From Streptomyces sp. NBC_00557 (GTDB lineage: Bacteria > Actinomycetota > Actinomycetes > Streptomycetales > Streptomycetaceae): DNA of 64,000 bases. This document shows positions 2,186 to 59,504 of this stretch, piece by piece. Within the stretch, counting starts at the first letter, position 1; each line of letters begins with the position of its first letter. The translations under genes were made by a program, and so were the position numbers. The notes under the pieces were generated by a model that saw only the letters and a list, made by a program, of their open reading frames with translations, searched no databases and was not told the DNA's origin. The DNA lies in the NCBI RefSeq assembly GCF_036345995.1, contig NZ_CP107796.1:4650001-4714000 (forward strand). The letters are read 5' to 3'.

Positions 2186-2211
2186 CCCACCACCGTCGCC
2201 CGAGGATCCTC

Positions 2212-3897
2212 ATGTCCGCCGCCGCGCTCGCAGCCCCCGAGGCTGCACCGCACGCCCAGCCGCATCCCGCGGCCGCCGGCGTGCGCACGCGCGACGGCGG
2301 ACTCACCATCCGCGTGCCCCTGCGCCTGGTCGTAGGCGCTCAGTACCCCGATGCGGCCCTGAGCGTCTACGTCAAGGTGGCAGCCCTCGCCCTCCGCCCG
2401 GAGGGCTGCACTGCCCGTGTCGCCACCCTCGCCGAGTACCTGGGCATGTCCAAGAGCGCGGTGGAGCGCGGCTTGCGCCCGCTCACCCAGCCGGACCCCA
2501 TCGACGGCATCACGGAAGTCCCCACCGTCCGCCGCACCAAGCGCGGCGGCACCGGCGACTCCGCCCACCGCGTCACCCGCCAGCTCACCGAAGATGAGCT
2601 GTGGGTGCGCATACCCGTCCGCGCCGCCGAGGCCCTCACCCCCCGCCTGCTGCGTCTGTACGCGCTCCTCGCCTACGCCACCGCCCGCCGTATCCCCGTC
2701 ACGGCCGCCGAGCTGGGCGAGATGCTGCACCACCACACCGGCAAGCGCGCCGGCGAGCACCTCGGCGAGCGGCAGGCCCGCCGCCTGGTGGACGAACTGG
2801 AGGCCACCGGCTGGCTCACCGTGCACCGCCGCGAGGGCGAGCAGGGCCGCCACGCGTACGAGACCCGCCGACACCCGCTGCGCACCGTCCCGGCCGCCCC
2901 GGCCGAGGAGCCGCCCGCCATCGAGCAGCTCGCCCTGTGGGACGAGGCGGCACCGGTCATTGAAGACGGATCGGGTTCGGATCTTGGTGACGGATCCCTC
3001 GCGTCTAAGGAAGACCTGGGAACTGACCGACCTGAGAAGACGCAGCTGGGTGGGGGTATCCGCCGTAGGCGAGGTGACCGTAAGTGCGCTGCGGATCCTG
3101 TGGATAACCGTGTTCTGGCCGCCTTCGGCTCGGGCGATCTCGTGCTGCGCACGGATGCCGGAACCGATGGCCCGGGCCCGGCCGCTGGCCGTCCCGCGTA
3201 CACCGGCCCCGTCCTGCAGCTGTCCCCCCGTGTCTGGCGCGTCCTCGAGCCCGTACGGCACCACCTCGGCGAGATCCGCCCGTTCGTGCTGCGGCGCATC
3301 GCCCGCACCATCGGCGAGCAGCTGGACGCCCCGGGCGGCAGCGAAGACCGGCTGATCGACCGGCTCAGCCGCCGCTACGCCACCACCGAGGAGATCCGGG
3401 ACATCGGCCGCTGGCTACTCGGCGCGGGCCTCGTCCGGCACGGCTGCGGACGGCCCGAGTGCGAGACCGGCGTCATCTGGCCCAGCGGCGAGGACTGCGA
3501 ACTGTGCGCGGTCAACCGGCAGACGGCCGCCGCACGCGCCCGCCGGGATGCCGAGCTGGCCGCCGCCGAGGAGCGCATGGCCGAGCGCCGGCGCAGGCTG
3601 CGCGCCCTCGAGGACCAGGCGCAGCGCGAGCCGGCCACCGCGGCCGCCGCCCGCCGGCAGCAGTCCGGCGAGGAACCGCGGCCCGGGCCGCCTGCCGGGA
3701 CGGCCGCGCTCCCGCCGAAGGCCACCTACCGCCAGCGTCAGGCCGCCTCCGACGAGGAGATCCGCGCCGCGATCACCGACCTGGGCCCGGCTGTGGCCCT
3801 GCACATCTACGGCCACCTCAGGACGCTCCCGCTCCTGGACAGGCCGAACGTCACCGACGAGACCGGTACTGACCGGAGGACACCCCATGCCCAGTGA
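2212..3897 (+). CDS. Replication-initiator-like protein with two winged helices and a Cys4 cluster
   Basis: A 561-residue protein. The start at 2,212 is chosen because the frame upstream is a shadow of the preceding gene. Residues about 45-95 and 135-215 each form a winged-helix unit (helix-turn-helix, then a wing with G-W-L-T-V-H). This two-winged-helix layout is seen in plasmid and phage initiators of the RepA/O type. About 430-455 holds C-x4-C-x12-C-x2-C, likely a zinc site, followed by a long charged coiled coil. Between them, 2,960-3,165 codes for a low-complexity linker whose codons lose the usual G/C third base and include a DnaA-box-like sequence. Role as initiator is inference from architecture and position; a transcription regulator is the alternative. 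Confidence 0.75.
   Translation: MSAAALAAPEAAPHAQPHPAAAGVRTRDGGLTIRVPLRLVVGAQYPDAALSVYVKVAALALRPEGCTARVATLAEYLGMSKSAVERGLRPLTQPDPIDGITEVPTVRRTKRGGTGDSAHRVTRQLTEDELWVRIPVRAAEALTPRLLRLYALLAYATARRIPVTAAELGEMLHHHTGKRAGEHLGERQARRLVDELEATGWLTVHRREGEQGRHAYETRRHPLRTVPAAPAEEPPAIEQLALWDEAAPVIEDGSGSDLGDGSLASKEDLGTDRPEKTQLGGGIRRRRGDRKCAADPVDNRVLAAFGSGDLVLRTDAGTDGPGPAAGRPAYTGPVLQLSPRVWRVLEPVRHHLGEIRPFVLRRIARTIGEQLDAPGGSEDRLIDRLSRRYATTEEIRDIGRWLLGAGLVRHGCGRPECETGVIWPSGEDCELCAVNRQTAAARARRDAELAAAEERMAERRRRLRALEDQAQREPATAAAARRQQSGEEPRPGPPAGTAALPPKATYRQRQAASDEEIRAAITDLGPAVALHIYGHLRTLPLLDRPNVTDETGTDRRTPHAQ
2962..3165 (+). other. Candidate origin region inside the initiator-like gene
   Basis: Within the reading frame the third-codon G/C bias collapses (codons such as GGT, GAT, CTT, TCT, ACT, CGA cluster here). 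The hexamer CGGATC occurs four times (2,968, 2,978, 2,991, 3,092), and 3,099-3,107 reads TGTGGATAA, the complement of the DnaA box TTATCCACA. Origins lying inside initiator genes are known, as in lambda O. That this is an origin is inference. Confidence 0.35.
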
Positions 3898-8546: not shown

Positions 8547-8761
8547 CCAGCGTCCCGGCAGTGACGTTCCGGCTGCACCTGCCCCACCAGGTGCTGCCCG
8601 GCTTCCTGCTGCCGGACGGATGGGCCGTCGCCATAGACGACCTCGAATACGGCCTCACCTCGGCCGCCCCCAGCCTCCCGGACCTGATCCGCGGATACGG
8701 CGGCGGCCGCCTGGAGTGGCCCGAGCACGACCCCACGTATCAAGGAGGGCTGCACACATGA
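8543..8761 (+). CDS. Hypothetical protein (72 aa)
   Basis: A 72-residue protein translated from an ATG overlapping the previous stop. It looks like a small beta-sandwich or ferredoxin-like fold: alternating hydrophobic strands, then a Gly-rich stretch (Y-G-G-G-R-L) and an acidic tail. The stop overlaps the following start. No function assigned. Confidence 0.65.
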   Translation: MTSVPAVTFRLHLPHQVLPGFLLPDGWAVAIDDLEYGLTSAAPSLPDLIRGYGGGRLEWPEHDPTYQGGLHT

Positions 8762-9435
8762 TCTGCACCCTGTGTGAAACCCACGAACTCCCCTACGGCT
8801 CCCTCTGCCCCCGCTGTATCACCGCCACCCGCGACCGCCTGCAGCGGCTGCCGCGCATGTGGGCATCCCTGGACGCCTGGCTCATCCCGGGCCGCACCGG
8901 CAGCGCCCAGTACGGCGGCCGCGTCCGCCGCGCCGAGGCCCCGCTCCCCGTCGACAGCGAGGTCCTGGACCTGTGCGCCGCCGGCGGAATCGTCGGCGTC
9001 CTCGAGGACTGGCGCGAAGCCGTCTACGAGGCCCGCGGCTGGACGCTGCCGCCCCGCGCGGCATCTCTCGCTCACCGTGTCGCTATCGCGGCCGCCGACC
9101 TCGCCGAGCAACTCGACTGGATTTCCCGCTGGTACGCCGGCGAGGCCTTCGGCTGGGACATCCGGCGCCTGGTCGACCGCGTCCGCCATGTCGTGCGCCC
9201 CGGCCAGGACCCCGACGAACCCACGTTTCTCGGCTACTGCATCGCCGTCGACCGCGCCGGCGCCGTGTGTGGGGCGCGCCTGTACGCCGACATGGGCAAG
9301 GCCGTCCAGTGTGAGTGGTGTCTGTGCCAGTACCCGCCGGACAGTTGGCTGGCCCTGCGTCACTTCCAGGCCGAGCGCAGGCAGCCCCGTACGGCTGACG
9401 ACGAGGAGCACCACCTGGAGCCTGTTGCCGCCTGA
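8758..9435 (+). CDS. Zinc-knuckle protein conserved in Streptomyces elements (225 aa)
   Basis: Last gene of the early train. The N-terminus has C-x2-C and C-x2-C (residues 3-6 and 17-20), a zinc ribbon. A helical middle with several Trp follows, and a C-terminal C-x2-C-x-C cluster near residue 190. Proteins of this design recur beside HTH genes in Streptomyces prophages and plasmids; I cannot name a function. A strong hairpin terminator follows directly. Confidence 0.8.
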   Translation: MICTLCETHELPYGSLCPRCITATRDRLQRLPRMWASLDAWLIPGRTGSAQYGGRVRRAEAPLPVDSEVLDLCAAGGIVGVLEDWREAVYEARGWTLPPRAASLAHRVAIAAADLAEQLDWISRWYAGEAFGWDIRRLVDRVRHVVRPGQDPDEPTFLGYCIAVDRAGAVCGARLYADMGKAVQCEWCLCQYPPDSWLALRHFQAERRQPRTADDEEHHLEPVAA

Positions 9436-10723: not shown

Positions 10724-12310
10724 GTGTCCCTGGACCAGCCCATCGCCTGGGCGGCGGGCCACCTGTGGCCCGTCGCCCTGCTCGCGGGCGTCCTCGTGGC
10801 CATCTGCGGCCTCATCGTGCGCCGTACGAGCGGCGCCGTGCTCGCCGCCGGCATCGGCGCCCTCATCTGCACCGCGTACTCCGCCGACACCAGCTGGCGG
10901 TTCGCCGAGCACCGTCTCGGCATGGCCGACGTGGACGAACGTGCCGTCATGTTCGCCGCGGGGGAGGGCGCCCTGCTCGCCTGCGCCATCATGGCCCGTG
11001 CCAACAAGCGCGCCACCGCCACCGACACGGCCGCCGGCACCCCGGGCGTGGCGGGCGTCCTCGTCTGGGGCATCACCGGCATCCAGATCATCCCCGCGTT
11101 CAGCGAGTCTGGCTTCTGGGGCGGCACCGTCCGCGCCGTCATCGGCCCGGTCATGGCCAGCATGCTCTGGCACCTCGCCATGGGCCTGGAGATCCGCGTC
11201 AGCCGCCCCGAGGCCCTCAGCAGCGGCCTGCCCGCCCAGATCGGCCACGAACTGCGCGAGCGGCTGCTGTCCCGCCTCGGCCTGGCCGTCCGCGGCCGCT
11301 CCGCCGAGCAGCTCTCCCGCGACCGGGCCACCCAGCGTGCCGTGCGCCTGGCCTCGCGCAAGCACCTGGGGCCGTGGGGGAGAGCAGCGCTCAAGGCCTC
11401 CGTCGCCCGATCTGGCGCTGCCATCGACGGCGACCAGCGCCACCAGCTGCTGCAGCTGCTCGCCGCCCGCCGCAACGCCGCCGAGCTGCGCACCGTACCC
11501 GTCACCTCGCCATGGGTAGAGCAGCCCCTACCTGAGCCCTACCCGAGTACGCCGCTGGGTGTCACCGGGGCCGAGCTGCGCCGCATGGACCCCGTGGACG
11601 CAGTCCTGCGGGTCCACGCCGCGCACCCGGAGGCATCCCCGGCCGAACTCGCCAGCCTGTGCACCGAGTACGGCGTACCCGTCTCCGAGGCCCAGGTACG
11701 GGTAGCACTCCACGCCGTACCCGACCGCCGTACCTCGCCCACCCCGGCCGCGCTCGAGCAGCCTGCACCGCTGCTGTTCGCCTCGCCCGAGCCCCGCCAA
11801 CTGGACGGCCCTACCCGGCAGGACAGCCCGACCGAGCACGCCCCGGCCGACCACTCCTACTCCGGCACCGGCCTGCAGCTCTACCTCGCCACCGAACCCC
11901 AGGTACGCCCCGAAGTAGCGTGCGCCGTACCCGCCGAGACGATCCGCCGCCGACCTACCCGCACCGAGGTACACGCCCGCGTACCCGACCCGCCCAGCGG
12001 CATCGAGGACACCGCGGCCGCCGACGACGGCACCCTCACCTACCCCGCAGACGAGGAGCCCGCGACCCCTACCCAGGTAGCCGACGTACCCGCGCCGCTA
12101 CCCGTACCCGAGGCCGTACCCGCGGACCTGGGGGCGGCAGGTACCGGCGACTGGGAGCGCCTACTCGCCCAGGCCCGGGAGGTAGACGCCGCTCACCGTC
12201 GTACCCACGGCCGGCCCGCGCCCATCAAGACCCTCAAGCGCGAGCTGCGGGTAGGGCAGGCCCGGGCCCAGCTCGTGCGGGACGCGCTCGCCGAGGAGGC
12301 CAAGCGGTGA
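10724..12310 (+). CDS. SpdB/DUF2637-like membrane protein with long cytoplasmic tail
   Basis: A 528-residue protein. About four hydrophobic segments (residues 15-35, 38-55, 75-92, 108-150) include the A-A-G-E-G-A-L-L and P-V-M-A-S-M-L-W-H motifs seen in spread and mobile-element transfer proteins of Streptomyces plasmids. A soluble tail follows: helical to residue 255, Pro/Glu-rich and probably disordered to 455, and a C-terminal helix-turn-helix-like unit. In plasmids such proteins help move DNA between hyphal compartments after TraB transfer. The tail's DNA (11,494-12,255) carries a dense STACCYG motif array using rare GTA and CTA codons. The family assignment is from motif resemblance only. 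Confidence 0.65.
   Translation: MSLDQPIAWAAGHLWPVALLAGVLVAICGLIVRRTSGAVLAAGIGALICTAYSADTSWRFAEHRLGMADVDERAVMFAAGEGALLACAIMARANKRATATDTAAGTPGVAGVLVWGITGIQIIPAFSESGFWGGTVRAVIGPVMASMLWHLAMGLEIRVSRPEALSSGLPAQIGHELRERLLSRLGLAVRGRSAEQLSRDRATQRAVRLASRKHLGPWGRAALKASVARSGAAIDGDQRHQLLQLLAARRNAAELRTVPVTSPWVEQPLPEPYPSTPLGVTGAELRRMDPVDAVLRVHAAHPEASPAELASLCTEYGVPVSEAQVRVALHAVPDRRTSPTPAALEQPAPLLFASPEPRQLDGPTRQDSPTEHAPADHSYSGTGLQLYLATEPQVRPEVACAVPAETIRRRPTRTEVHARVPDPPSGIEDTAAADDGTLTYPADEEPATPTQVADVPAPLPVPEAVPADLGAAGTGDWERLLAQAREVDAAHRRTHGRPAPIKTLKRELRVGQARAQLVRDALAEEAKR
11494..12255. repeat. Dense array of STACCYG motifs within a gene
   Basis: By eye I count 27 copies of [GC]TACC on either strand in about 760 bases, most extended to STACCYG (for example GTACCCG). 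Base composition alone would give about three. The motif is absent from the first 770 bases of the same gene and returns to background after it. It is built from different codons (GTA-Cnn, CTA-Cnn, TAC-Cnn and, reversed, GGT-Ann), so selection or mutation appears to act on the DNA rather than the protein. Confidence 0.8.
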
Positions 12311-12507
12311 TCGGCGCTGCCGGGTTCCTCCTCGCGCTCGCCTGCTTCGCCATCGTCAGCGCCGGCCTGGCGCTCGCCGTCGCGGCCTGGCGGCCGCGGC
12401 CCGGCGACGGCCCGGCATTTGCGCTCGCCGTCACCGCCGGCCTCGCCGTCGGCGCCCTCTGCTTCCTCCTCGGCGCGCTGCACTGGCTCGCCCACCTACT
12501 GACCTGA
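12307..12507 (+). CDS. Two-helix membrane protein (66 aa)
   Basis: A 66-residue protein from a GTG overlapping the previous stop. Two transmembrane helices (about residues 3-23 and 36-62) flank a short basic loop (R-P-R-P-G-D-G). Small hydrophobic proteins of this kind accompany spd genes in Streptomyces conjugative plasmids. Function unknown. Confidence 0.7.
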   Translation: MIGAAGFLLALACFAIVSAGLALAVAAWRPRPGDGPAFALAVTAGLAVGALCFLLGALHWLAHLLT

Positions 12508-19606: not shown

Positions 19607-19716
19607 TCGTCTCGGGGCCCGGCGCGGTCAACTCGACGCACGTCGTCTCAGAAAAAATTTCGCGCGATGGGCCCCCGGGCCGATCACGCTGAGTAAATGT
19701 GCAGGTCAGAGGGGTG
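19607..19716 (+). other. Candidate cos or packaging region
   Basis: A 110-base non-coding stretch between the HNH and terminase genes. It contains an isolated AT block (AGAAAAAATTTCGCGCGA, 19,650-19,667) immediately followed by a G/C block centred on GGGCCCCCGGGCC. Cos sites of HNH-encoding siphophages lie just here, next to the small terminase. The site itself cannot be proven from one copy. Confidence 0.35.
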
Positions 19717-20205
19717 ATGACCATGGGGCGTACCGCCCAGCCCGCTGCCCTCAAGCTGCTGCACGGCCGCGGCAATGGCCGCGACTCCGGCGGCCGCGTC
19801 GTCAACCCGGGGCCGGCCTTCCGCCGCATCCCACCCAAGCCGCCCACCTGGCTCAGCCGCGAGGCCGCCGCCGAGTGGCGCCGTGTTGCCCCCGGCCTGC
19901 AGCGCCTGGACCTCCTCAAGGAGGAGGACCGCGCTGTGCTCGCCGCCTACTGCGAGACCTGGTCCCAGTTCGTGGAGGCCACCCGCACGGTCACGAAGGA
20001 AGGCATCACCACGCAGGTCGTCACGGTCAGCGCCTCCGGCAGCGAGACCACGCGCACCGTGCCGCACCCTGCCGTGACGATCGCCCGGTCCGCCGGCCGC
20101 GAGCTGCGGGCGTTCGCCGCGCAGTTCGGCCTGACGCCCAGCTCCGAGCAGGCCCTGGCGAGAGGGGCCGACGATGGCAGCGAGGACGACAACCCGTTCG
20201 CGTAA
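19717..20205 (+). CDS. Terminase small subunit, P27 family
   Basis: A 162-residue protein. The start at 19,717 is favoured by the AGAGGGG upstream; 19,723 is also possible. The N-terminus carries the P27-type L-K-L-L-H-G-R-G-N followed by P-P-x-W-L-S-x-E-A-A-A-E-W and a helical core to about residue 75. A short beta region and a C-terminal helix follow. The small subunit recognises viral DNA and recruits the large subunit. The last 32 bases overlap the large terminase gene. Confidence 0.93.
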   Translation: MTMGRTAQPAALKLLHGRGNGRDSGGRVVNPGPAFRRIPPKPPTWLSREAAAEWRRVAPGLQRLDLLKEEDRAVLAAYCETWSQFVEATRTVTKEGITTQVVTVSASGSETTRTVPHPAVTIARSAGRELRAFAAQFGLTPSSEQALARGADDGSEDDNPFA

Positions 20206-21958
20206 GCCCGGCAAGCCGAAGGCCGCCAAGCGCACCGACCAGCTGCAGCTGCCGGACCAGGAGGAGCTGGACCGGCTCAAGCTGAGCCCGGAGGTGGCCT
20301 GGTACCTGGTCGCCCGTGGGATCCCGCTGCCGGACTGCCCGCCGAAGTTCAAGACACCGGAGCCGCGGCAGGAGCCGGGCGCGATCTTCGATCCTGCGCG
20401 CGTGGACCGGGTGATCAACGCTTTCTCCAAGCTGAGGCACACCAAGGGGCAGTGGGCCGGCCAGCCGCTCAAGCCCGACCCGTGGCAGGTCGCCTACGTC
20501 CTGGCGCCGGTATACGGCTGGGTGCACTGGGACGATGCCGCCGACGACTACGTGCGGATCATCTCCGAGCTGTACGTCGACGTCCCCCGCAAAAACGGCA
20601 AAAGCACATTGTGTGGCGGCATCGCGATCTACATGACGGCCGCCGACGGCGAGCCCGGCGCCGAGGTCATCGCCGCGGCGACGACCAAGGACCAGGCCCG
20701 TTTCGTCTTCGACCCGATCCGGCGCCTGGCCGAGTCCGCGCCCGCGCTCAAGGGACACGTCAAGCCGCTCAAGGACAAGATCCTCCACCCCAAGAGCGGC
20801 AGCTACTTCCAGGTCATCTCCAACGTGGCAGACGCCCAGCACGGCGCGAACCTGCACGCCTCGATCCTGGACGAGCTGCACGTCCACAAGAGCCCGGACA
20901 TGCTCGAGGCCCTGGAGACCGGCACGGGCTCCCGTCGGCAGCCGCTCAACGTCGTCATCACCACGGCGGACACCGGCCGCCGTGAGACGCCGTACGACAA
21001 CAAGCGCCGGCGCATCGAGCAGCTGGCCCGCGGCGTGCTGCACGACCCGAGCGTGTACGGCGTCATCTTCGCCGCACCAGACGACGCCGACCCGCACGCC
21101 GAGGAGACCTGGCGCCTGGCTAACCCAGGCTTCGGCGTCTCGCCGACACGGGCGTACCTGGCCAAGGCCTCACGCAGGGCGCAGGGATCGGACACCGACC
21201 TCGCCTGTTTCAAGCGGCTGCACCTCGGCATCCGTACGCGGCAGGACAGCAAGTTCCTGCGGATCGAGGACTGGGACCGCAACGCGGGCATGGTGCTCGA
21301 GGCCACGCTCCGCGGCCGGGACGCCTGGGGCGGTCTGGACCTCGCCGCGACGTCCGACCTGCTGGCGCTGTGCTGGCTGTTCCCGAACGACGACGACGGC
21401 ACCCTGGACGCACTGTGGCGGTTCTGGACGCCGGAGGAGAACCTCCCGTCGCTCGACAAGCGGACGGCGCGGGCCGCATCGCGGTGGGTACGCGAGGGCT
21501 GGCTCACCACCACCCCGGGCAACGTCGCCGACTACGACTGGATCAAGGAGCAGATCCGAAAGGACCGCGACACGTTCCGGGTCCGGTCCATCGGCTACGA
21601 CCCTTGGAACGCGAGCCAGTTGACCAACGACCTGATGTCCGAGCGCGCGCCCATGGTGAAGGTGCGGCAGGGCTTCCAGACCATGTCGCCCTGCCTCAAA
21701 GAGGTCCAGCGGCTGATCAAGCGGGGCACGCCGGAGACGCCCGTGCTGCGGCACGGAGGCCATCCCATCGTCCGCTGGTGCGTCGACAACCTCGCCGTCG
21801 TCATGGACCCGGCCGGCAACGTCAAGCCGGACAAGGCCAACTCCGGCGACAAGATCGACGGCGTGTCCGCCCTGTTGACCGCCATGTCCGAGGTCCTCGC
21901 CCGGCCGCCGCGGCGCAAGTCCCGGTACGCGGACGAGGACGAAATCATGGTCGTCTAG
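20174..21958 (+). CDS. Terminase large subunit
   Basis: A 594-residue packaging ATPase and nuclease. Walker A is R-K-N-G-K-S-T at about residues 139-145, Walker B is I-L-D-E-L-H at 231-236, and the coupling Thr-Thr is in V-I-T-T-A-D-T. The RNase H-like nuclease starts with G-L-D-L-A-A-T-S-D at about 389 and includes the later Asp in D-P-W-N-A. Length matches HK97-type large terminases. It overlaps the small subunit and its TAG stop overlaps, palindromically, the stop of a minus-strand gene. Confidence 0.96.
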   Translation: MAARTTTRSRKPGKPKAAKRTDQLQLPDQEELDRLKLSPEVAWYLVARGIPLPDCPPKFKTPEPRQEPGAIFDPARVDRVINAFSKLRHTKGQWAGQPLKPDPWQVAYVLAPVYGWVHWDDAADDYVRIISELYVDVPRKNGKSTLCGGIAIYMTAADGEPGAEVIAAATTKDQARFVFDPIRRLAESAPALKGHVKPLKDKILHPKSGSYFQVISNVADAQHGANLHASILDELHVHKSPDMLEALETGTGSRRQPLNVVITTADTGRRETPYDNKRRRIEQLARGVLHDPSVYGVIFAAPDDADPHAEETWRLANPGFGVSPTRAYLAKASRRAQGSDTDLACFKRLHLGIRTRQDSKFLRIEDWDRNAGMVLEATLRGRDAWGGLDLAATSDLLALCWLFPNDDDGTLDALWRFWTPEENLPSLDKRTARAASRWVREGWLTTTPGNVADYDWIKEQIRKDRDTFRVRSIGYDPWNASQLTNDLMSERAPMVKVRQGFQTMSPCLKEVQRLIKRGTPETPVLRHGGHPIVRWCVDNLAVVMDPAGNVKPDKANSGDKIDGVSALLTAMSEVLARPPRRKSRYADEDEIMVV

Positions 21959-22182
21959 CTCAGGCCGAAGGATGCGGCGCCGTACGACGGGAGTTGGACG
22001 TCCACGTCCAGCGTCAGCTCAACGGACTGACCGTCGTCTGCGACACGGGCCGCCAGGATGCGCCCCGTCGTCTGGTCCTTGCCCGGGATGTTCACCGGTA
22101 CCTCTTTCCCGATCTGTCCGTCGAAGGCGTTTGCCGCGAAGGTCGCACCGGCGGGGGTGGGCTGGTTGCACTTCATCTCCAT
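21955..22182 (-). CDS. Antisense-oriented small protein in the late operon (75 aa)
   Basis: A 75-residue minus-strand gene (ATG at 22,180-22,182, with a second Met two codons on). It has one Cys near the N-terminus and a beta-rich body with the pattern G-K-E-V-P-V-N-I-P-G-K-D-Q-T-T-G-R-I-L, resembling a small barrel that could bind ligand or protein. Its stop shares the palindrome CTAG with the large terminase stop. Since it opposes the late transcript, it is probably expressed separately, as morons are. Confidence 0.7.
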   Translation of the reverse strand: MEMKCNQPTPAGATFAANAFDGQIGKEVPVNIPGKDQTTGRILAARVADDGQSVELTLDVDVQLPSYGAASFGLS

Positions 22183-22219
22183 GCCGCCACCGTAGCGGCC
22201 CGACCGAAGGAGGTCAGCC

Positions 22220-22441
22220 GTGTTCGCGTGGCGCCGTACGGCCGTACGTAAGCGAGTCGTCGTCAACCTGGCCGACAAGGCATTCCGGGCGATCCTGTGG
22301 GCCAAGCGCGGCCCGCTCCTGGTCCTGCGCGACGCCGAACTCCTCGAAGCCGGCCGCGCGCCGCAGCCGGTGGACGGCGAGGTCGTCATCGAGCGCGCTC
22401 GCGTGGAGTTCATCCAGGTCCTGGCGGGCGGTGAGAGCTGA
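22220..22441 (+). CDS. Small basic head-region protein (73 aa)
   Basis: A 73-residue protein from a GTG with AAGGAGG upstream, directly coupled to the portal start (the final A of its TGA is the first base of the portal ATG). Very basic N-terminus, then V-V-V-N-L and a beta-rich body. Position between terminase and portal is common for short hypothetical proteins in actinophages. Function unknown. Confidence 0.7.
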   Translation: MFAWRRTAVRKRVVVNLADKAFRAILWAKRGPLLVLRDAELLEAGRAPQPVDGEVVIERARVEFIQVLAGGES

Positions 22442-24399
22442 TGGCGTTCGTGGTCAGCTCCGGTGAACTCGCCACCACCGGGGCCGGCGTGCTGCCGGCG
22501 TACGCGCCCGTGACGTTCCGGGCGCAGCCGTGGGAGTACGAGGCGATCTGGCGTACCCAGCCGCAGGTCCGCACGGTGATCGGGTTCATCGCGCGGAACA
22601 TCGCCCAGCTCGGCATCCACGTCTTCCGCAGGGTCAGCGACACCGACCGGCAGCGGCTGACGGATCACCCGCTGGCGCAGCTGCTCGCCGATCCGCTGCC
22701 GCGCATGACCCCGTACCGGTGGGTGGAACGGCTGATCTCCGATGCCGCGCTGTACGACAACGCCTACGGGATCAAGCTGAAGCTGGACGGGCGCCTGCGG
22801 ATCCTGCCGGTGCCGCCCACCCTGATCCGCCCGTACGGCGGGAACTGGATCGCCCCGGAGTACTACGACACCCCCGGCGGGCGGCAGTTCGGCCCGGACG
22901 AGGTGATCCACATCCACGGCTACTCGCCGACCGACCTCACCTACGGCGAGAGCCCGATCGAGGCGCTACGCGATCTGATCCTGGAGTCCTCCGAGGCCGC
23001 CAAGCAGCGGGCCCAGATGTGGCGCAACGGGGCCCGTTTGACCGGCGTGCTGGTGCGGCCGGCCGATGCGCCCGAGTGGAACAGCAAGGAGAAGGCCCGG
23101 TTCCGGGAGATGTGGCGGACGTTCTCGGAGGGCGGCGGCGCCGAGGGAGGCACGCCGATCCTCGAGGACGGCATGGAGTACAAGTCCATCGGTTTCACGC
23201 CCGAGGCTGCCCAGTACATCGAGGCCCGCAAGCTGACGCGGGAGGAGTGCGCGGCCGCGTATTTCATCCCGCCGCCGCTCATCGGGATCCTCGACCACGC
23301 CACCTACTCCAACATCCAGGAGCAGCACAAGCACCTGTACCAAGACACGCTCGGCCCGTGGACGGTGATGTTCCAGCAGGAACTCGTGGCCCAGGTGCTG
23401 CCGGATCTGCCGGACAACCAGGACGTGTACTGCGAGTTCAACATCGAGTCCAAGCTCCGCGGCGACTTCGAGTCGCAGGCGGCCGCGGCCTCCACCGCCG
23501 CCGGCGGGCCGTGGATGACCCGCAACGAGATCCGGGCCCGGAACAACCTGCCGCGCATCGAGGGCGGGGACGAGCTGATCGTGCCCATGAACGTCACCGA
23601 GGGCGGCCTCGCCAGCCCGCGGGACACCGCCCCTGACTCCGCGGGCGGCGCCCCAAAAGCTGGCGGCCTGCCGCGTAGGAAAGCCTCCGGCAGGCCATCG
23701 TCGCTCGGCACCTTCGCCTCCGAACGGGACGCCCTCGAGAGCACGTTGACAGCGTTCACAGAGCGGCAGGCCAACGCGCTCCTGGCGGCCGCCGGCGCGA
23801 AGGCCGACGACAGCGGCGGGGACAGTCCGCCGATGCCGGACCTGCTCGCCCTGTGGGCGAAGGGATCCAAGGACCGCCTCGCGCAGCTGCAGGCGCTTCT
23901 GTCCACCCACGGCTACCGGCTCGCCCAGGTTGGCGCCTGGGACGTGCTGGACGTCTACAACCCCGAGGCCGAGGGCTGGTCGGCCGAGGTGATGCTCGCC
24001 TGGATCCTCGCTGCCGCTGAAACGCATGCGCAGCAGCACGAGGACGCCGGGCGGGAGGCCGTCGCCAAGGTGCAGGAAGAGGGCGGCGACGGCTGGCGGG
24101 AGGCCCTGCAGTCGGCCGCGGCATCGTGGGGGTCCGCGGCCGCTGCACGGGCCCGCACCGCCTCCACCGAGCTGCGCTCCTTCGGCAGCCACGACGCCGC
24201 CGGCGCGAGCGGCCTGACCAAGAAGATCTGGCGGACCGGCGGGAAGAACCCGAGGCCCAGCCACAAGGCCCAGGACGGCGAAACCGTCTCCCTGGACGAC
24301 GTGTTCTCCAACGGCCTGCGCTGGCCCGGCGACGGCAAGGGCCGCACCGAGGAACTCGTCAACTGCCACTGCACCCTCGACTACGCGAAGGAGGAATGA
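22441..24399 (+). CDS. Portal protein fused to MuF-like C-terminal domain
   Basis: A 652-residue protein. Residues 1 to about 390 are an HK97-family portal: W-R-T-Q-P-Q-V-R-T-V-I-G-F-I-A-R-N near the start, the L-Y-D-N-A-Y-G segment, and G-I-L-D-H-A-T-Y-S-N-I-Q-E-Q in the clip/crown part. After a Pro/Ser-rich linker, residues about 430-652 end with R-P-S-H-K-A-Q-D-G-E-T-V and E-L-V-N-C-H-C-T-L-D-Y, the signature of SPP1 gp7/Mu gpF head proteins. Portal and MuF are usually separate genes, so this is a fusion. The portal forms the dodecameric DNA channel. Confidence 0.93.
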   Translation: MAFVVSSGELATTGAGVLPAYAPVTFRAQPWEYEAIWRTQPQVRTVIGFIARNIAQLGIHVFRRVSDTDRQRLTDHPLAQLLADPLPRMTPYRWVERLISDAALYDNAYGIKLKLDGRLRILPVPPTLIRPYGGNWIAPEYYDTPGGRQFGPDEVIHIHGYSPTDLTYGESPIEALRDLILESSEAAKQRAQMWRNGARLTGVLVRPADAPEWNSKEKARFREMWRTFSEGGGAEGGTPILEDGMEYKSIGFTPEAAQYIEARKLTREECAAAYFIPPPLIGILDHATYSNIQEQHKHLYQDTLGPWTVMFQQELVAQVLPDLPDNQDVYCEFNIESKLRGDFESQAAAASTAAGGPWMTRNEIRARNNLPRIEGGDELIVPMNVTEGGLASPRDTAPDSAGGAPKAGGLPRRKASGRPSSLGTFASERDALESTLTAFTERQANALLAAAGAKADDSGGDSPPMPDLLALWAKGSKDRLAQLQALLSTHGYRLAQVGAWDVLDVYNPEAEGWSAEVMLAWILAAAETHAQQHEDAGREAVAKVQEEGGDGWREALQSAAASWGSAAAARARTASTELRSFGSHDAAGASGLTKKIWRTGGKNPRPSHKAQDGETVSLDDVFSNGLRWPGDGKGRTEELVNCHCTLDYAKEE

Positions 24400-24403
24400 C
24401 GCC

Positions 24404-25312
24404 ATGCGCACCATGGAGGTGACCGCCAAGGTCAAGGCGGCGGGCGTCGCCGACGGCCTGGCCGAGGGACAGTTTGTCGCCCTCGTCTCGGTGTTCAACA
24501 ACGAGGACAGCATGGGCGACGTCGTCCGCCCGGGCGCCTTCACCCAGACCCTGCAGGACTGGGCGGCCAAGGGCGACAGCATCCCCGTCATCTGGTCCCA
24601 CCAGTGGTCCGACCCGTTCGCCCACATCGGGCACGTCCTGGAAGCCCAGGAGACCGACCAGGGCTTGGAGGTCCTCGGCCAGATCGATGACCTCGGCGAG
24701 AACGACACCGCCGACCAGGTCTACCGCCTCCTCAAGGGGAGAAGGGTCACACAGTTCTCCTTCGCCTACGACGTGCCCAACGGCGGCGGCGCCTGGGTGA
24801 AGGACGACACCCACCCCTGGGGCGGCTACTACGAGCTGCGCCAGGTCGACCTGCACGAGGTCGGTCCCTGCCTGCTCGGCGTGAACCGCGAGACCGAGTT
24901 GCTCGCCGCGAAGGCCGCCAGCATCGCCGCCGGCGCCAAGGCCGGCCGCGTGCTGTCCCAGGCCAACTACGACCGTCTCACCGCGGCCTACCAGTCGATC
25001 GGTGAGGTCCTGGCCGCCGCCGAGCCGGAGAAGGCACGGCAGCCCGCGGCCCCCAAGAACGACACCCCGTCGGAAGAGTCCGGCCAGCCCGGCTCTGCGG
25101 CGGCCAGCGGCACCGAGCCGCCCGCCCAGCCCTCAGAGCCCGCGCCCGCCCAGGACGCCGCCGACACCGCGACCACCAGCAGCACCGAGAACGAGGCCAC
25201 CCCGGACCCCCGCGAAGCATCCGACGCGGATGCCGCCAAGGCCGGCGCCGTCTCCAACCGCCTGCGCACCGACCTCGCGCTCCTGGAGCTCGAGGTATCG
25301 CTCACGGAATGA
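24404..25312 (+). CDS. HK97-type prohead protease
   Basis: A 302-residue protein. The protease part (residues 1-170) shows the family pattern N-N-x-D-x-x-G-D-V-V-x-P-G-A-F, with likely catalytic His66 in W-S-H-Q, Ser119 in Q-F-S-F-A-Y and an acidic partner near 152 (L-H-E-V-G). Residues 200-300 are Ala/Pro/Glu-rich and probably removed on maturation, perhaps acting as a scaffold. It cleaves the capsid N-terminus and itself during prohead maturation. It begins five bases after the portal and ends just before the capsid gene. Confidence 0.94.
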   Translation: MRTMEVTAKVKAAGVADGLAEGQFVALVSVFNNEDSMGDVVRPGAFTQTLQDWAAKGDSIPVIWSHQWSDPFAHIGHVLEAQETDQGLEVLGQIDDLGENDTADQVYRLLKGRRVTQFSFAYDVPNGGGAWVKDDTHPWGGYYELRQVDLHEVGPCLLGVNRETELLAAKAASIAAGAKAGRVLSQANYDRLTAAYQSIGEVLAAAEPEKARQPAAPKNDTPSEESGQPGSAAASGTEPPAQPSEPAPAQDAADTATTSSTENEATPDPREASDADAAKAGAVSNRLRTDLALLELEVSLTE

Positions 25313-25318
25313 GGAGAC

Positions 25319-26647
25319 ATGCCCAAGACCATCAAGGAACTCTCGGAGGAGATGAAGGACCACCTCCTCAAGGCCCAGGCGATCGCCAAGGCCGCCGAGG
25401 AAGCGGACCGGGACTTCACCGAGGAGGAGACGACCCAGCTGCGTGAGCACATGGCCAAGGCCACCGCAGCGAAGGCCGAGATCGAGAAGCTCAAGGGCAA
25501 CGAGGAGCTGCGTAAGACGCTCGCCGAGCTCGGCGACGACATCGCCCTCAACGCCAAGACCGACAACGAGGGCCGCCGGCAGACCGCGTCCGGGTTCCTG
25601 CTCCCCGACAAGGCCAAGAGCCTCGGCGAGCAGTTCACCGAGTCCCCCGAGTACAAGGCCCTCCTCGCGCAGGCCCCGAACGGCCAGTTCGGCGCGAAGC
25701 AGCGCGTTCAGTCCGAGATGTTCGGCGTCAAGTCGCTGGTCACCGGAGGCGACGACACCTCCGGCGGTGCCCTGGTCCAGCCCGACTACCGCGGCCTGGC
25801 CGTCGGCCTGGATGTTTTCCAGCGGCCGCTGCGCCTGCGGGACGTCGTCACCCCCGGCCAGACCACCTCCGACACGGTGGAGTACGTCCGCGTCACCTCG
25901 GTGACCAACAACGCCACCCCTGTGCCGGAGGCCACATCCTCCGCAGCGCCGACCGCTCCGGGCGGTGCCGGTCCGCTGGTGAACAACGCGGGCGGCGGCT
26001 ACAAGCCCGAGTCGGGCCTGGCCCTCGCGAAGATCACCACGGCGGTCAAGACGATCGCCCACTGGATGCCGGCGACCAAGCGGTCTCTGTCCGACGCCGC
26101 GCAGATCAGGACGCTGATCGATGCCTTCCTCCTCTACGGCCTGGAGGAGGAGCTGGAAGACCAGATGGTCCAGGGCGACGGCACGGGCGAGAATTTCGAG
26201 GGACTGTCGAACGTGAGCGGGATCCAGGCGCAGGCCTGGGACTCCAACCTCCTCAAGACGACCCGCAAGGCCAAGACCCTGGTGCGCACCGTCGGCCGGT
26301 CCATCCCGAACGCCTACCTGCTCAACCCGGCCGACACCGAGGCGCTGGACCTGCTGCAGGACAACGAGGCGAGGTTCTATTTCGGCGGCCCTGCCGGAGC
26401 CGGCACCGCCCAGGTCCTGTGGGGCATCCCGGTCATCGAGACCGAGGCCGTCCCCGCGGGTACCGGCTACTGCGGCGACTTCCGTAAGGCCGTCCTGTGG
26501 GACCGCGAGCAGGCCACCATCCAGATCACGGACTCTCACCTGGACTTCTTCGTCCGCAACCTCGTGGCGATCCTCGCCGAGATGCGCGCGGCCTTCGGTG
26601 TCCTGCAGCCGTCCGCGTTCGTCGAGATCGACCTCACCGCGGCCTGA
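25319..26647 (+). CDS. Major capsid protein, HK97 fold
   Basis: A 442-residue protein with GAGGAGA just upstream. Residues 1-110 form a charged coiled coil (delta/scaffolding domain) that the protease would remove. The mature part starts near residue 115 and contains the E-loop, the spine helix and R-S-I-P-N-A-Y-L-L-N-P-A-D-T-E-A-L-D-L typical of the HK97 family. The length fits a capsid with a built-in scaffold. It is the main shell protein. Confidence 0.95.
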   Translation: MPKTIKELSEEMKDHLLKAQAIAKAAEEADRDFTEEETTQLREHMAKATAAKAEIEKLKGNEELRKTLAELGDDIALNAKTDNEGRRQTASGFLLPDKAKSLGEQFTESPEYKALLAQAPNGQFGAKQRVQSEMFGVKSLVTGGDDTSGGALVQPDYRGLAVGLDVFQRPLRLRDVVTPGQTTSDTVEYVRVTSVTNNATPVPEATSSAAPTAPGGAGPLVNNAGGGYKPESGLALAKITTAVKTIAHWMPATKRSLSDAAQIRTLIDAFLLYGLEEELEDQMVQGDGTGENFEGLSNVSGIQAQAWDSNLLKTTRKAKTLVRTVGRSIPNAYLLNPADTEALDLLQDNEARFYFGGPAGAGTAQVLWGIPVIETEAVPAGTGYCGDFRKAVLWDREQATIQITDSHLDFFVRNLVAILAEMRAAFGVLQPSAFVEIDLTAA

Positions 26648-26662
26648 TCGGAGGCATCACCC

Positions 26663-26875
26663 ATGGCGTACCTCAACCCGGCCGCCGGCGCGGCCCGCGA
26701 GGGCAAGCAGGCCGCGGCACAGGCCGACATGGCCGCGGTCACCACGACGGCCGCGGCCGGGGCCACCCCGACCAAGGCCGAGTTCGACAAGGTCGTCACC
26801 GACCTGACCAACGCCCGGAACACGATCAACGGTCTCCTGGCCAAGCTCCGCGCGGCCGGCCTGATCGCCCCGTGA
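26663..26875 (+). CDS. Head-fibre-like / capsid decoration protein (70 aa)
   Basis: A 70-residue protein immediately after the capsid gene. The C-terminal T-P-T-K-A-E-F-D-K-V-V-T-D-L-T-N-A-R followed by L-L-A-K-L-R-A-A-G-L-I resembles the short helical head-fibre family that decorates phage capsids. The N-terminus is Ala-rich. Stop overlaps the next GTG. Role inferred from sequence resemblance and position. Confidence 0.7.
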   Translation: MAYLNPAAGAAREGKQAAAQADMAAVTTTAAAGATPTKAEFDKVVTDLTNARNTINGLLAKLRAAGLIAP

Positions 26876-27387
26876 CCCTGTTCATCCACCGCCACGTCGG
26901 AGGGCGCTGCCCATGCGGCGCGGCAAACGCCGCGTGCGGCGGGCCCTCCGACGTCGTGCCGGTGGACCAACTCATCGAGGAGGTGGCCGCGGTGAGCGGT
27001 CCGCTGAAGAAGTACAAGGTCGTGCGCGGTGGCGTAGAGACCGTGATGAAGCTGTCCGACGACGACGCCAAGCGGCTCGGCGTCGGCGCGGACGATCTGG
27101 TCGACGGAGCGTCGACCATCGAGCCGGTGCAGGCCGCCGAGTCGGCGGCCGCCGAGGACGGCCCGGGCGAGGAGGGCGCGGACGAGGAGGGCGCGGACGA
27201 GGAGGGCGCGGACGAGGAGGGCGCGGGCCCGGACGACGGCCAGGAGACCGACGCAGGCTCCGAGAACCCACAGGACGCGAAGACCGACACCACGGCCGCG
27301 GCCAAGAAGACGCCGGCCAAGCGGCGCCCGGCGTCGGCGAACAAGGCCCGCACGAGCGCGGCTACCAAGGCCGATGGTGGCAGCTGA
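26872..27387 (+). CDS. Acidic and basic low-complexity head-region protein (171 aa)
   Basis: A 171-residue protein from a GTG overlapping the previous stop. It has an N-terminal Cys cluster (C-P-C-G then C), then a short folded part with a K-Y-K-V-V-R-G-G strand and an N-terminal-domain-like V-M-K-L-S-D-D-D-A helix. A strongly acidic stretch with four D/G-E-E-G-A repeats follows, then a Lys/Arg-rich tail. It may bind DNA or capsid through its charged segments. Its stop overlaps the connector start. Confidence 0.65.
   Translation: MTLFIHRHVGGRCPCGAANAACGGPSDVVPVDQLIEEVAAVSGPLKKYKVVRGGVETVMKLSDDDAKRLGVGADDLVDGASTIEPVQAAESAAAEDGPGEEGADEEGADEEGADEEGAGPDDGQETDAGSENPQDAKTDTTAAAKKTPAKRRPASANKARTSAATKADGGS
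27166..27225 (+). repeat. Four copies of a 15-bp in-frame repeat
   Basis: The unit GACGAGGAGGGCGCG occurs three times in a row (27,181-27,225), preceded by one copy with two changes. It encodes D-E-E-G-A repeats in the acidic segment of the preceding gene and could vary in number by slippage. Confidence 0.9.
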
Positions 27388-27940
27388 CGACTACCTCGCG
27401 GACCCGACCGAGCTGGCCGCCAAGGTCGGCCGCGCTCCGGACGACCCGCAGCTGCTGTTCGCCCTGCGCCAGGCAACACGCCGCTTCCGCGGTCAGGTCG
27501 GGCACCGGGTCACCCTCGTCACCGACGACACGGTCACGCTGGACGGCAACGGCAGGCAGTCGCTGTTGCTGCCCGTCTGGCCCACCGTCGCCGTGACACA
27601 GGTGGTCCTCGATGGCACCGCACTGACCGAGGGCAGCGACTACAGCTGGTCAGAGGCGGGCATGCTGCGCCGCCTCGGCTGCCTGCGCTGGCCCGACCGG
27701 CTGCGCTGCCTGCAGGTCGTCTACACCCACGGCTGGGACGGACTGACCAACGTGCCCGAGGACATTCAGGAGGCCGTCCTCGAGCGCGCTGAGGCTGTCC
27801 TGACGATCCCGGTGGGCGTGCAGTCCAAGGCCGTCGGCGGGCAGTCCGTCACGTTCGGCGCGCAGGCCGCGTCCGGCGCGACCGAGGCCTGGGTGTCCGC
27901 CGTCAACCGGTACAAGGTCCGCACGGGCGGAGAGGCCTGA
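27374..27940 (+). CDS. Head-tail adaptor (gp6-like connector)
   Basis: A 188-residue protein. The N-terminal helices (D-D-P-Q-L-L-F-A-L-R-Q-A-T-R-R-F-R) are followed by a beta part with W-P-T-V-A-V-T-Q-V, L-T-E-G-S-D-Y and the V-Y-T-H-G-W-D strand, a pattern typical of HK97 gp6-like adaptors that ring the portal. It overlaps the previous gene and its stop overlaps the next ATG. Confidence 0.85.
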   Translation: MVAADDYLADPTELAAKVGRAPDDPQLLFALRQATRRFRGQVGHRVTLVTDDTVTLDGNGRQSLLLPVWPTVAVTQVVLDGTALTEGSDYSWSEAGMLRRLGCLRWPDRLRCLQVVYTHGWDGLTNVPEDIQEAVLERAEAVLTIPVGVQSKAVGGQSVTFGAQAASGATEAWVSAVNRYKVRTGGEA

Positions 27941-28287
27941 TGTTCTTCTTCGACTCCCTCGTGCGCGTGCGCGCGGGCACGCGCACGGACCGCGGCGGCA
28001 ACCCGGTACCGGACTGGTCTGCCGGGGCCGTCGACCGGCTGACCGTCGACCAGCTGAACATTCAGCCGGCCAGCCAGACCGAGAACCAGGATGCCACCCG
28101 CACGGCGGTCGTCACCGGCTGGCGTGTGCAGTCCGCCGAGGGGACCCGCCCGGACATCACGGCCGCGGACCGCCTCGAGTGGCGCGGCATGACGCTCGAG
28201 GTGCAGGGCGAGGTAGCCGAGTGGTCCGACCCGATCACCGGCAAGCCGCACCACATCGAGTTCACCATGACCCGCGCCACCGGATAG
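27940..28287 (+). CDS. Head closure (stopper) protein
   Basis: A 115-residue beta-rich protein starting on the stop of the adaptor gene. The pattern of V-R-x-G-T-x-x-D-R-G-G-N-x-V-P-D-W near the N-terminus and D-R-L-E-W-R-G-M-T-L-E-V-x-G near the C-terminus is that of SPP1 gp16-like stoppers. Stoppers cap the connector to hold DNA in and bind the tail. Role from family pattern and gene order. Confidence 0.8.
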   Translation: MFFFDSLVRVRAGTRTDRGGNPVPDWSAGAVDRLTVDQLNIQPASQTENQDATRTAVVTGWRVQSAEGTRPDITAADRLEWRGMTLEVQGEVAEWSDPITGKPHHIEFTMTRATG

Positions 28288-28299
28288 GAGGGGAGCCCG

Positions 28300-28581
28300 A
28301 TGCTGCAATCCTTCCGACTGGACAGCCGTGGCGTCCGCCAGGTCCTCAAGAGCGAGGAACTCAGCCGCACCGTCAACGGCCTGGCGGGGGCCATCGCCGC
28401 GCACGTCCGGCCGCACGTCCCCCAGGGCACGGTCGTCTCCGTGCACGCCTACACCACCGACCGAGGCGCCGCCTCGGTCACCGTCGAAGACGTCCGGGCC
28501 ATGTCCTGGCAGGCCCGCGACGGCATCCTCACCCGAGCCGCCGGCGAGGTCGGCCTCGAGGTCAAGGCGTGGCAGCAGTGA
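28300..28581 (+). CDS. Neck/minor tail protein (HK97 gp10-like, 93 aa)
   Basis: A 93-residue protein with AGGAGGGGA upstream. A helical first half (V-R-Q-V-L-K-S-E-E-L) is followed by T-V-V-S-V-H-A-Y-T-T-D-R-G-A-A-S-V-T-V, a two-strand motif usual in gp10-like neck proteins located between stopper and tail terminator. It overlaps the next gene by four bases. Confidence 0.75.
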   Translation: MLQSFRLDSRGVRQVLKSEELSRTVNGLAGAIAAHVRPHVPQGTVVSVHAYTTDRGAASVTVEDVRAMSWQARDGILTRAAGEVGLEVKAWQQ

Positions 28582-28994
28582 AGCCGCTGACTGTCTTCGA
28601 TGACGCCCAGGCGGCGGCCGCCGACGTCCTGCGCACCGCGCTGGCCGGGCGGCCGGAAGACTTCGCGGCCGGCGTCACCGTGGGCACCCGAGTGCCCGGC
28701 AGCCGCGCCCCCGAGACGCCGCTGCGGTACGTCATGGTCCGCAAGGACGCCGACCTGCCGCACCCGTCCATGGCCAACGCGCGCGTCACGCTTCGGGTGA
28801 CGTGCTGGCACGAGGACGACGACCAGGCGCACGACCTGGCGATGCTCTGCCAGGGCCTGCTCATCGTCCACTCCGGCGACGTCATCCGCGGCGTACGCCC
28901 GGGCACCGGGCCGCTCCCTGCCGTGGACGACGTCTCCGGCTGGCCGCTGTCCACGTTCACCGTGCTCGCCAACGTCCGGCCCCGGCTGGCCTGA
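28578..28994 (+). CDS. Tail terminator
   Basis: A 138-residue protein from a GTG overlapping the previous stop. The N-terminal helix with repeated Ala-Leu, the V-G-T-R-V-P strand and the W-H-E-D-D-D-Q-A-H-D-L-A helix, followed by terminal strands, fit the alpha/beta tail-terminator fold (HK97 gp10/lambda gpU type). It ends tail-tube growth and joins the tail to the neck. Position immediately before the tail-tube gene supports this. Confidence 0.8.
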   Translation: MKPLTVFDDAQAAAADVLRTALAGRPEDFAAGVTVGTRVPGSRAPETPLRYVMVRKDADLPHPSMANARVTLRVTCWHEDDDQAHDLAMLCQGLLIVHSGDVIRGVRPGTGPLPAVDDVSGWPLSTFTVLANVRPRLA

Positions 28995-29050
28995 CGCGCG
29001 GACCTCCCGAACCGCGGCTCCCTGCATCTGCTACCTGGAAGGAGGGCGCC

Positions 29051-29818
29051 GTGGCCGGCGACCCGACAAAGGCAAACCTGTGGACCGACGCTGACGTGTA
29101 CGTGTCCTTCAACCTCAACGCGACCCTGCCCGCCAACGCCGACGAGCCGTTCGGGCCCGACTGGGAGCTGGTCGGTCTGCTGGACGGCGACGACGGCTTC
29201 CCGGAGTCCCGCGACGAGGACACCGACGACAAGTTCGCCTGGGGCGGCATCCTCGTGCGGACCAGCCGCCAGCACTTCAAGCTCACCAAGTCCTTCACGG
29301 CCCTCGAGGACAACGACGTGACGCGCCAGCTGGTCTGGCCCGGCTCCACCGCCACCAAGATCAAGGTGCCGCGCCCGGCCCGGGTCAAGGTGGCGTTCGA
29401 GACCCGCGAAGGCATCAAGAAGCGTCGGCTCGCCACGAGCCTGTACGCCGAGTGTGCGCTGGACGGCGACCACGGCGAGAACGAGACCGACCTCGAGTCG
29501 GCGACGATCGCCTGCACGATCTTCCCGACCTCGGACGGCGACCTGTTCGATCTGCAGGAGACTCCGGTCCTGCAGTCCATCTCTGTCACGCCGGCCACTC
29601 TGGCCGTCACCGCCGGGAACATCGAGGCCCTGGCCGCGACCGCCACCTACTCCGACTCGTCCACGGCCGACGTCACCGCCGAGGCGACCTGGACGTCCTC
29701 GGACGCCACCAAGGCCACCGTCAGCGCGGGGTTCGTTACCGGCATCGCCGCCGGCACCGCGACCGTCACGGCCACCTATCAGGGCCAGACGGACACCTGC
29801 GCGGTCACCGTCAGCTGA
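29051..29818 (+). CDS. Major tail tube protein with C-terminal Big2 Ig-like domain
   Basis: A 255-residue protein with AAGGAGGG upstream of the GTG. Residues 1-175 are the tube domain (beta-rich, with L-W-T-D-A-D-V-Y-V-S-F near the start). Residues 176-255 are a bacterial Ig-like group 2 domain: L-Q-S-I-S-V-T-P-A-T-L-A-V-T-A-G, A-T-W-T-S-S-D, G-T-A-T-V-T-A. Such domains project from the tail surface and can bind sugars on the cell. It is followed by a large hairpin. Confidence 0.93.
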   Translation: MAGDPTKANLWTDADVYVSFNLNATLPANADEPFGPDWELVGLLDGDDGFPESRDEDTDDKFAWGGILVRTSRQHFKLTKSFTALEDNDVTRQLVWPGSTATKIKVPRPARVKVAFETREGIKKRRLATSLYAECALDGDHGENETDLESATIACTIFPTSDGDLFDLQETPVLQSISVTPATLAVTAGNIEALAATATYSDSSTADVTAEATWTSSDATKATVSAGFVTGIAAGTATVTATYQGQTDTCAVTVS

Positions 29819-49838: not shown

Positions 49839-49868
49839 AAACCGCCTCTGACCTGCGGTCCAGGTCGG

Positions 49869-49941
49869 TGCCCCCGGCAGGATTCGAACCTGCGACACCC
49901 GCTTTAGGAGAGCGGTGCTCTATCCCCTGAGCTACGAAGGC
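49869..49941 (-). tRNA. tRNA-Arg (anticodon CCT)
   Basis: All arms pair on the minus strand: acceptor GCCTTCG with CGGGGGC (two G-T pairs), T arm GCAGG-TTCGAAT-CCTGC, anticodon stem CCGCT/AGCGG with loop CTCCTAA (anticodon complement at 49,906-49,908), and discriminator A. CCA is not encoded. Its 3' end faces the prophage, the usual orientation for integration into the 3' end of a tRNA gene by a tyrosine recombinase. Confidence 0.95.
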
Positions 49942-59437: not shown

Positions 59438-59504
59438 CGGGGGAGGGGGCGGTCACCGGCACGGTGCATCCGGTCCGGCGGACCCGGCACCGACGCCTGC
59501 GGGC

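Follow-up and report, generated by a model that had tools for sequence, protein, structure and literature searches.

The window analysed here is a 64,000-nucleotide stretch of Streptomyces sp. NBC_00557 (NZ_CP107796.1, positions 4,650,001 to 4,714,000), and the gene of interest within it sits in a prophage of ~56.0 kb, whose extent follows from a 44-bp direct repeat at a tRNA-Arg gene and an integrase gene (4644145-4644714) just inside the left copy of that repeat, outside the window at G000:C1:4643865. Another copy of the tRNA-Arg repeat, 37 bp long (L031:701, G000:C1:4630701), suggests that a second element of ~13 kb adjoins the prophage. The majority of the ORFs scanned between 1 and 18 kb belong to no named family; ORF 2113-3897 gave a weak match to the replication-initiation family phrog_270 (E 2.8e-5), and a phrog_1467 gene (8620-9435), lying a few ORFs upstream of the array gene, is conserved in 43 of 142 homologous loci and is independent of motif type. 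No match to the FtsK/TraB motor (PF01580) was found in the prophage interval, and a ParA-type ATPase (PF13614) was detected neither there nor in 33 virus records, which may be fragments; a prophage-encoded TraB/FtsK motor and a ParA partner were thus both set aside. The features of the locus are collected in Table 1.

Table 1. Features of the array gene and of the prophage that carries it (window coordinates).
Feature	Position	Strand	Evidence or content
Array gene, 528 aa, GTG start, probable membrane protein with C-terminal DNA-binding domain	10724..12310	+	ORF list, homologues
N-terminal helical part, aa 1-257, probably membrane-embedded, no motif	10724..11493	+	AlphaFold2, hydropathy, 0 TACC
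Motif array	11495..12254	both (19 sense, 9 antisense)	28 STACC sites (19 STACCYG)
Helical domain in the middle part, aa 280-332, perhaps a second helix-turn-helix	11561..11719	+	AlphaFold2; correlates with motif type
Disordered Pro/Ala-rich linker, aa 334-473, beneath much of the array	11723..12142	+	pLDDT mostly <50, composition
C-terminal predicted three-helix DNA-binding domain, aa 474-528, FtsK-gamma-like	12143..12307	+	AlphaFold2, profile comparisons
Codon 505 (Lys); K or R where the array is STACCYG, Q where it is GGATGC/GGCTGC	12236..12238	+	Residue sorting
Codon 520 (Asp), alignment counterpart of E. coli FtsK gamma E1303	12281..12283	+	Alignment; E1303 from excerpts of PMC2533119, PMC2680272
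Next ORF, 66 aa, 4-bp overlap with array gene (GTGA), hydrophobic by eye	12307..12507	+	Sequence, ORF list
Prophage head/tail genes (terminase, portal, protease, capsid, tail)	19699..29818	+	PHROGs
Right attachment repeat, 44 bp, within tRNA-Arg 49867-49941	49868..49911	.	Direct repeat

The encoded protein matched no family in Pfam or NCBIfam, DUF2637/SpdB included; one relative (P0101) is labelled DUF2637 by NCBI, the sole source of that name. Its designation as an Spd-like membrane protein in the original prediction is plausible, although no Pfam family match stands behind it. AlphaFold2 places N-terminal helices at residues 14-34, 37-63, 70-98 and 109-160 (pLDDT ~45-75), and this part is probably embedded in the membrane, the one line of support being two peaks over 1.6 in the hydropathy profile. 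The helices of the middle domain were modelled with higher pLDDT (~82-91) at residues 282-287, 290-300, 306-315 and 322-331.

A motif array beneath the second part of the gene

TACC or its complement GGTA is absent from the first 771 bp of the gene, reaches 27 per 800 bp in the array and, in the rest of the window, stays at or below 9 over the same length. The segment 11494-12255 holds 28 such sites, all of them [GC]TACC, against 2.6 expected from the remainder of the window; of the strict form STACCYG, the array has 19 copies and the ~63.2 kb outside it 35. Valine is encoded by GTA at 17 of 24 positions in the second part of the gene and at none of 18 in the first. These counts bear out the original prediction that rare GTA valine codons contribute to the array, and that neither the first ~770 bases nor the neighbouring genes share its density.

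The original prediction had also set ~27 copies against about three expected from composition and had proposed a comparison with shuffled-codon versions of the gene. With the protein fixed and codons drawn at family frequencies, 28 TACC sites were observed against 5.3 expected (z 12.3); when the protein and the segment's own codons were kept, STACCYG occurred 19 times against 8.4, and 0 of 400 permutations were as high. The observation is stronger than was claimed, and the figures change to a count of 28 and, with the protein fixed, an expectation of about 5. Both synonymous-codon nulls rule out protein sequence or codon usage as the cause of the array, and composition, codon bias and protein repeats were rejected by such nulls with and without masking of tandem repeats.

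Across the whole 9.02-Mb genome, a search for three consecutive TACCYG spaced 3-33 bp apart gave 14 matches, three of them in the array gene, and a backwards control pattern gave 11, so the genome-wide total of such triples is not raised. Inspected by eye, the 11 clusters elsewhere comprised eight short tandem repeats, two in a promoter-like stretch near 4.0178 Mb and one unclassified. That stretch (G000:C1:4017804-4017868; L189:4805-4870) carries four TACCYG and lies between divergent host genes, one of which is a protein kinase gene. Two further local word clusters were noticed in the window: GGCAAC at 40380 (9 in 800 bp against 0.6) and runs of C at 59438 (CCCC 35 against 8.9).

Homologues with STACCYG and with other arrays

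Single-protein scans of the genome and the viral contigs returned nothing, whereas alignment-based scans found homologues. Among proteins, 1,515 of 8,000 scored candidates matched at E<=0.001, and 69 of 199 genomes of the genus had a match. No tblastn match was obtained in 50,697 records of cultured phages, and 10 were obtained among 72,556 plasmid records, none covering 80% of the query. The loci compared here were 80 from named genomes (the best 80 of 181) and 62 from viral contigs; of 172 genes, 19 were dropped as duplicates, leaving 153, and four more as too short, leaving 149.

TACC is in excess (z>4, synonymous null) in 51 of these 149 genes. In the 47 genes that have 10 or more sites (945 in all), the consensus is STACCYG and the commonest form GTACCCG (467 sites); the bases around TACC are biased within the arrays and hardly so in flanking DNA. 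The sites occur in all six frame and strand combinations, with GTA-CCC/CTA-CCC the commonest frame (448 of 945), and TACC is most often followed by C and G in five of the combinations and by T and C in the sixth (246 antisense sites). Permutation of each gene's own codons was exceeded in 48 of 48 STACCYG genes, with 605 sites in total against 253; 469 of these sites are sense and 136 antisense, and eight of the 48 genes have at least 90% pointing one way. Palindromes are not the main signal, as overlapping GGTACC pairs account for only 93 of 857 distances between neighbouring sites.

In ten relatives whose second halves are 49-61% identical to that of the window gene, 7-17 of its 28 sites keep both position and strand, and 4-10 of those shared in each lie over changed amino acids. 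The motif thus persists while amino acids change, which the original prediction had proposed as a test, and this persistence, together with the six frames and strands and the two synonymous nulls, supports its claim of a signal at the DNA level. Loss of the motif from homologues that keep the protein sequence had been named as evidence against that claim, and such loss is seen in part. Most homologues outside the subfamily do lack STACCYG, but they carry other C-terminal domains, many with a different array.

Those alternative arrays, sought as any 5-6-mer above the synonymous null, occupy the same place in the gene in other lineages and consist of GGTCCC, GGATGC, GGGTGC, GGAACC, GGCTCA or TGTCG. 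When the genes were grouped by their last 75 aa, FtsK-gamma-like tails (clusters 14, 12, 11 and 10) went with CGGGTAC, RVQLREILRR..GRNDRL-type tails with CGGTCCC, and VRDTA..APSYVH tails with GTTCA in 6 of 10 genes, while CGGAACC, GGCTCA, CGGGTGC and GGATGC/GGCTGC were found in single genes or pairs. No clear array was seen with MerR-like tails (cluster 5) or in cluster 6, and little in cluster 9. After masking of tandem repeats, GGTCCC occurred 476 times against 147 under permutation of each gene's own codons, and all 32 genes reached p<=0.05; the GGAACC, GGCTCA, GGATGC, GGCTGC, GGGTGC, GTTCA and TGTCG arrays that were tested likewise exceeded masked permutations (no more than 3 of 300 reaching the observed count), and an assignment of GGATCC in L112 is based on three sites.

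In 20 of 24 loci of the GGTCCC type, as classed by count thresholds of our own setting (L101:11814-13562 among the homologues), there is a gene from a family with a relaxase match (PF03432) in its representative, and the module therefore serves several kinds of element, mobilisable ones included. Four of the 10 plasmid matches were read: L184, L185 and L187 have no array, and L186 has one. The latter gene (L186:4785-6347, Kitasatospora sp. NBC_01246 plasmid unnamed2) is a distant homologue with 27 TGTCG/CGACA in its second part, against 1.6 expected, or 5.9 under permutation. It is divergent from an adjacent ParA-type gene (PF13614, E 2.3e-27), which has an unnamed partner ORF of its own. A cluster of the words GGGAA and AAACGT, possibly iterons, was noticed in yet another element (L037:2248-2881).

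The protein region that tracks the motif

Motif profiles taken outside the tail were compared with the tail and the N domain after five of 146 genes had been dropped as near-duplicates. The partial correlation of motif with tail given the N domain was 0.53, against 0.14 for the N domain once the tail is accounted for (0 of 2000 permutations as high in each case). None of seven neighbour families explained the motif given the tail (p>=0.09; lowest 90/1000), the tail being significant in every one of these tests, and neighbour genes were accordingly rejected as readers. Motif type thus follows the C-terminal helix-turn-helix more than it follows the N domain or the seven neighbour families.

The C-terminal domain in the window's lineage appears to resemble, distantly, the KOPS-reading gamma domain of FtsK. 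The six best matches of its profile in the PDB were FtsK gamma chains (E 5.9e-4 to 0.017), and FtsK_gamma (PF09397) was the commonest Pfam match (13 of 38 members at E<=0.5, best 7.9e-4); the window member itself scored 12.3 bits, below the curated cut-off of 30.6, and alignment of the host FtsK with the domain gave a probability of 47%. A Foldseek search with the C-terminal model returned no PDB match at E<=0.001, and the wing after helix 3 is absent from the models, in which the protein ends right after that helix with no strand.

Within the 65 genes with an FtsK-gamma-like tail, the same count thresholds gave 48 STACCYG genes, 10 with GGATGC/GGCTGC, four with GGGTGC (L042 being mixed) and three with no clear motif. 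Position 505 is K or R in 48 of 48 STACCYG genes, Q in 10 of 10 GGATGC/GGCTGC genes and K in all four GGGTGC genes, the residue of L052 having been set to K by hand as a deletion shifts its reading; the Fisher p for STACCYG against GGATGC/GGCTGC is 1.9e-11, uncorrected for ancestry. Residue 520, which aligns with FtsK E1303 (excerpts of PMC2533119 and PMC2680272), is D, N or E in 41 of the 48 and in 0 of 14 others. The position of FtsK N1296 is mostly A, P or K in the 48 genes, and that of R1300 is R in only 22 of them. The N-domain tree requires six changes for the Q state and six for its motif, and the two are concordant in 4 of 4 independent pairs on supported branches (p 0.125). Part of this sorting of residues with motifs could reflect linked inheritance, as linker and tail adjoin and can be inherited together.

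A different reader within the same protein, namely the middle domain (aa 280-332), has its own correlation with motif type. With motifs taken only between the two regions, for which 64 of 141 genes had enough linker, the partial correlation reached 0.42 with the tail and 0.62 with the middle region, and in the 30 FtsK-gamma-like genes among them 0.32 and 0.34; a less clean version with all 65 FtsK-gamma-like genes gave -0.03 for the tail. In the 34 genes with other tails, however, the values were 0.52 for the tail and -0.22 for the middle region, and both the codon-level sorting and the similarity to FtsK favour the tail, so that we consider a middle-domain reader unlikely. Taken together, the comparisons suggest that the reader of the array probably resides within the array gene's own protein, where the tail is a better candidate than the middle domain.

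A possible membrane tether and its rivals

The joint presence of motif sites, of a likely reader encoded by the gene that bears them and of a probable membrane part suggests a tether between DNA and membrane. We regard it as moderately likely, from sequence comparison, that the array consists of binding sites for its own gene's product, whose C-terminal domain would read them while the N-terminal part sits in the membrane. Recognition by the C-terminal helix-turn-helix is suggested by the covariation with motif type and the distant similarity to FtsK gamma. Many copies of the protein on the array might then hold the element's DNA to the membrane, and such tethering might help the DNA to segregate or to pass along the multi-compartment hyphae, tethering and its purpose being the least certain parts of this reading. 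As motif and putative reader diverge together, each element would address its own DNA. The comparisons themselves establish the array, selection at the level of DNA, conservation of the array, motifs specific to lineages and the agreement of motif with C-terminal domain, whereas binding, membrane location and purpose are predictions.

Dense repeats can also be the iterons of a replication origin, and the array might be an intragenic origin read by a phage replication initiator. Its place inside a gene would fit such an origin. The origin of phage lambda lies inside gene O, whose product has its binding sites within its own coding sequence, and the phrog_270 match noted above would supply a candidate initiator. 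Similarity of the phrog_270-type genes nevertheless does not account for the motif given the tail (-0.08, 17 loci), and we hold this reading to be a little less probable than recognition by the middle domain. The O protein is also a soluble replication initiator with few iterons, in contrast to the 28 sites and the probable membrane domain of the window gene.

The original prediction had put forward a binding array for a TraB/FtsK-like translocase, and part of this stands, in that the tail of the encoded protein is itself FtsK-gamma-like. In favour of a loading site of the clt/TRS or KOPS kind, used by an FtsK/TraB translocase that the host or another element supplies, are the likeness of the domain to FtsK gamma and that of the GGGTA core to KOPS. 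An FtsK-like gene, assigned by its position relative to PF01580 matches, adjoins 7 of the 44 STACCYG genes whose neighbours were read, and two of 20 virus records with a TACC-type homologue (L172 and L177) have FtsK/TraB matches under the curated cut-off. On the other hand, the remaining 18 records, like the prophage interval, have none; elements within a single genus differ in motif class, contrary to what is expected if one host FtsK read them all; and the mixed orientation of the sites speaks against a polarised loading signal. We therefore think such a loading site improbable. Even less probable is a role in transcription, through self-repression or silencing, in place of tethering: DNA-binding proteins often control their own genes, but the array begins 771 bp into the window gene, and upstream stretches of 1.5 kb in the homologues show an ordinary density of TACC (0-9.3 per kb). 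As for an artefact of codon bias or of Val-Pro repeats, the predominance of the GTA-CCC/CTA-CCC frame and the repetitive look of 8 of the 11 other genomic clusters lend it next to no credence beside sites in all frames and an excess over own-codon permutation in every STACCYG gene and, with tandem repeats masked, every GGTCCC gene.

The tethering reading departs from the known systems that it recalls. With the gamma domain of FtsK and SpoIIIE, which reads KOPS/SRS (E. coli GGGNAGGG), the window protein shares a distantly similar C-terminal helix sequence and a short, G-rich, asymmetric motif with a GGGTA core, but it has neither ATPase motor nor wing, and its predicted sites are clustered inside its own gene and face both ways, whereas KOPS are polarised along the chromosome. 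FtsK gamma outside a motor is also found in a phage protein, the small terminase of the Bacillus phages Sam46 and Sam112, which differs in being a packaging protein, no array in its own gene being described in the excerpt of PMC8190038. Streptomyces TraB with its clt/TRS sites (pSVH1, pJV1, pWTY27) likewise pairs a mobile element with repeated short sites whose motif differs per element (excerpts of PMC3583192 and PMC4170104); the reader there is a translocase, whereas the prophage encodes no motor, and the clt locus in pWTY27 lies mostly in non-coding DNA, just 16 bp of it falling within traA, while the window array is coding.

A precedent for part of the proposed role is SpdB2 of pSVH1, a DNA-binding integral membrane protein whose binding, at the membrane, is reported to be non-specific and which matters for spreading and stability (PMC4170104, in part); for the window protein, membrane location and binding are predicted. 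The proposed role may also be likened to that of RacA of Bacillus subtilis, a DNA-membrane tether that aids DNA transport (excerpt of PMC6593407). RacA is a chromosomal protein. Its sites are not known to lie within its own gene. Listings of open-licence papers showed no description of arrays of this kind.

More tentatively, and somewhat short of what we would call probable, the family may represent a widespread 'self-centromere gene' of actinobacterial mobile elements, in which a membrane-anchor gene is at once its own docking array, several unrelated helix-turn-helix tails have each acquired an array of their own, and the element gains a private address with no ATPase partner. Arrays hidden inside genes can be detected by synonymous nulls alone. 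If the tethering reading holds, it would give phages and mobile elements a compact, motor-less way to mark and hold their own DNA, and the natural pairs of tail and motif would offer an existing panel from which DNA reading by an FtsK-gamma-like domain could be learned. The 'spreading' of elements through the mycelium would also become testable, since these proteins would indicate where specific sites might be, in contrast to the non-specific binding described for SpdB2 (PMC4170104, in part).
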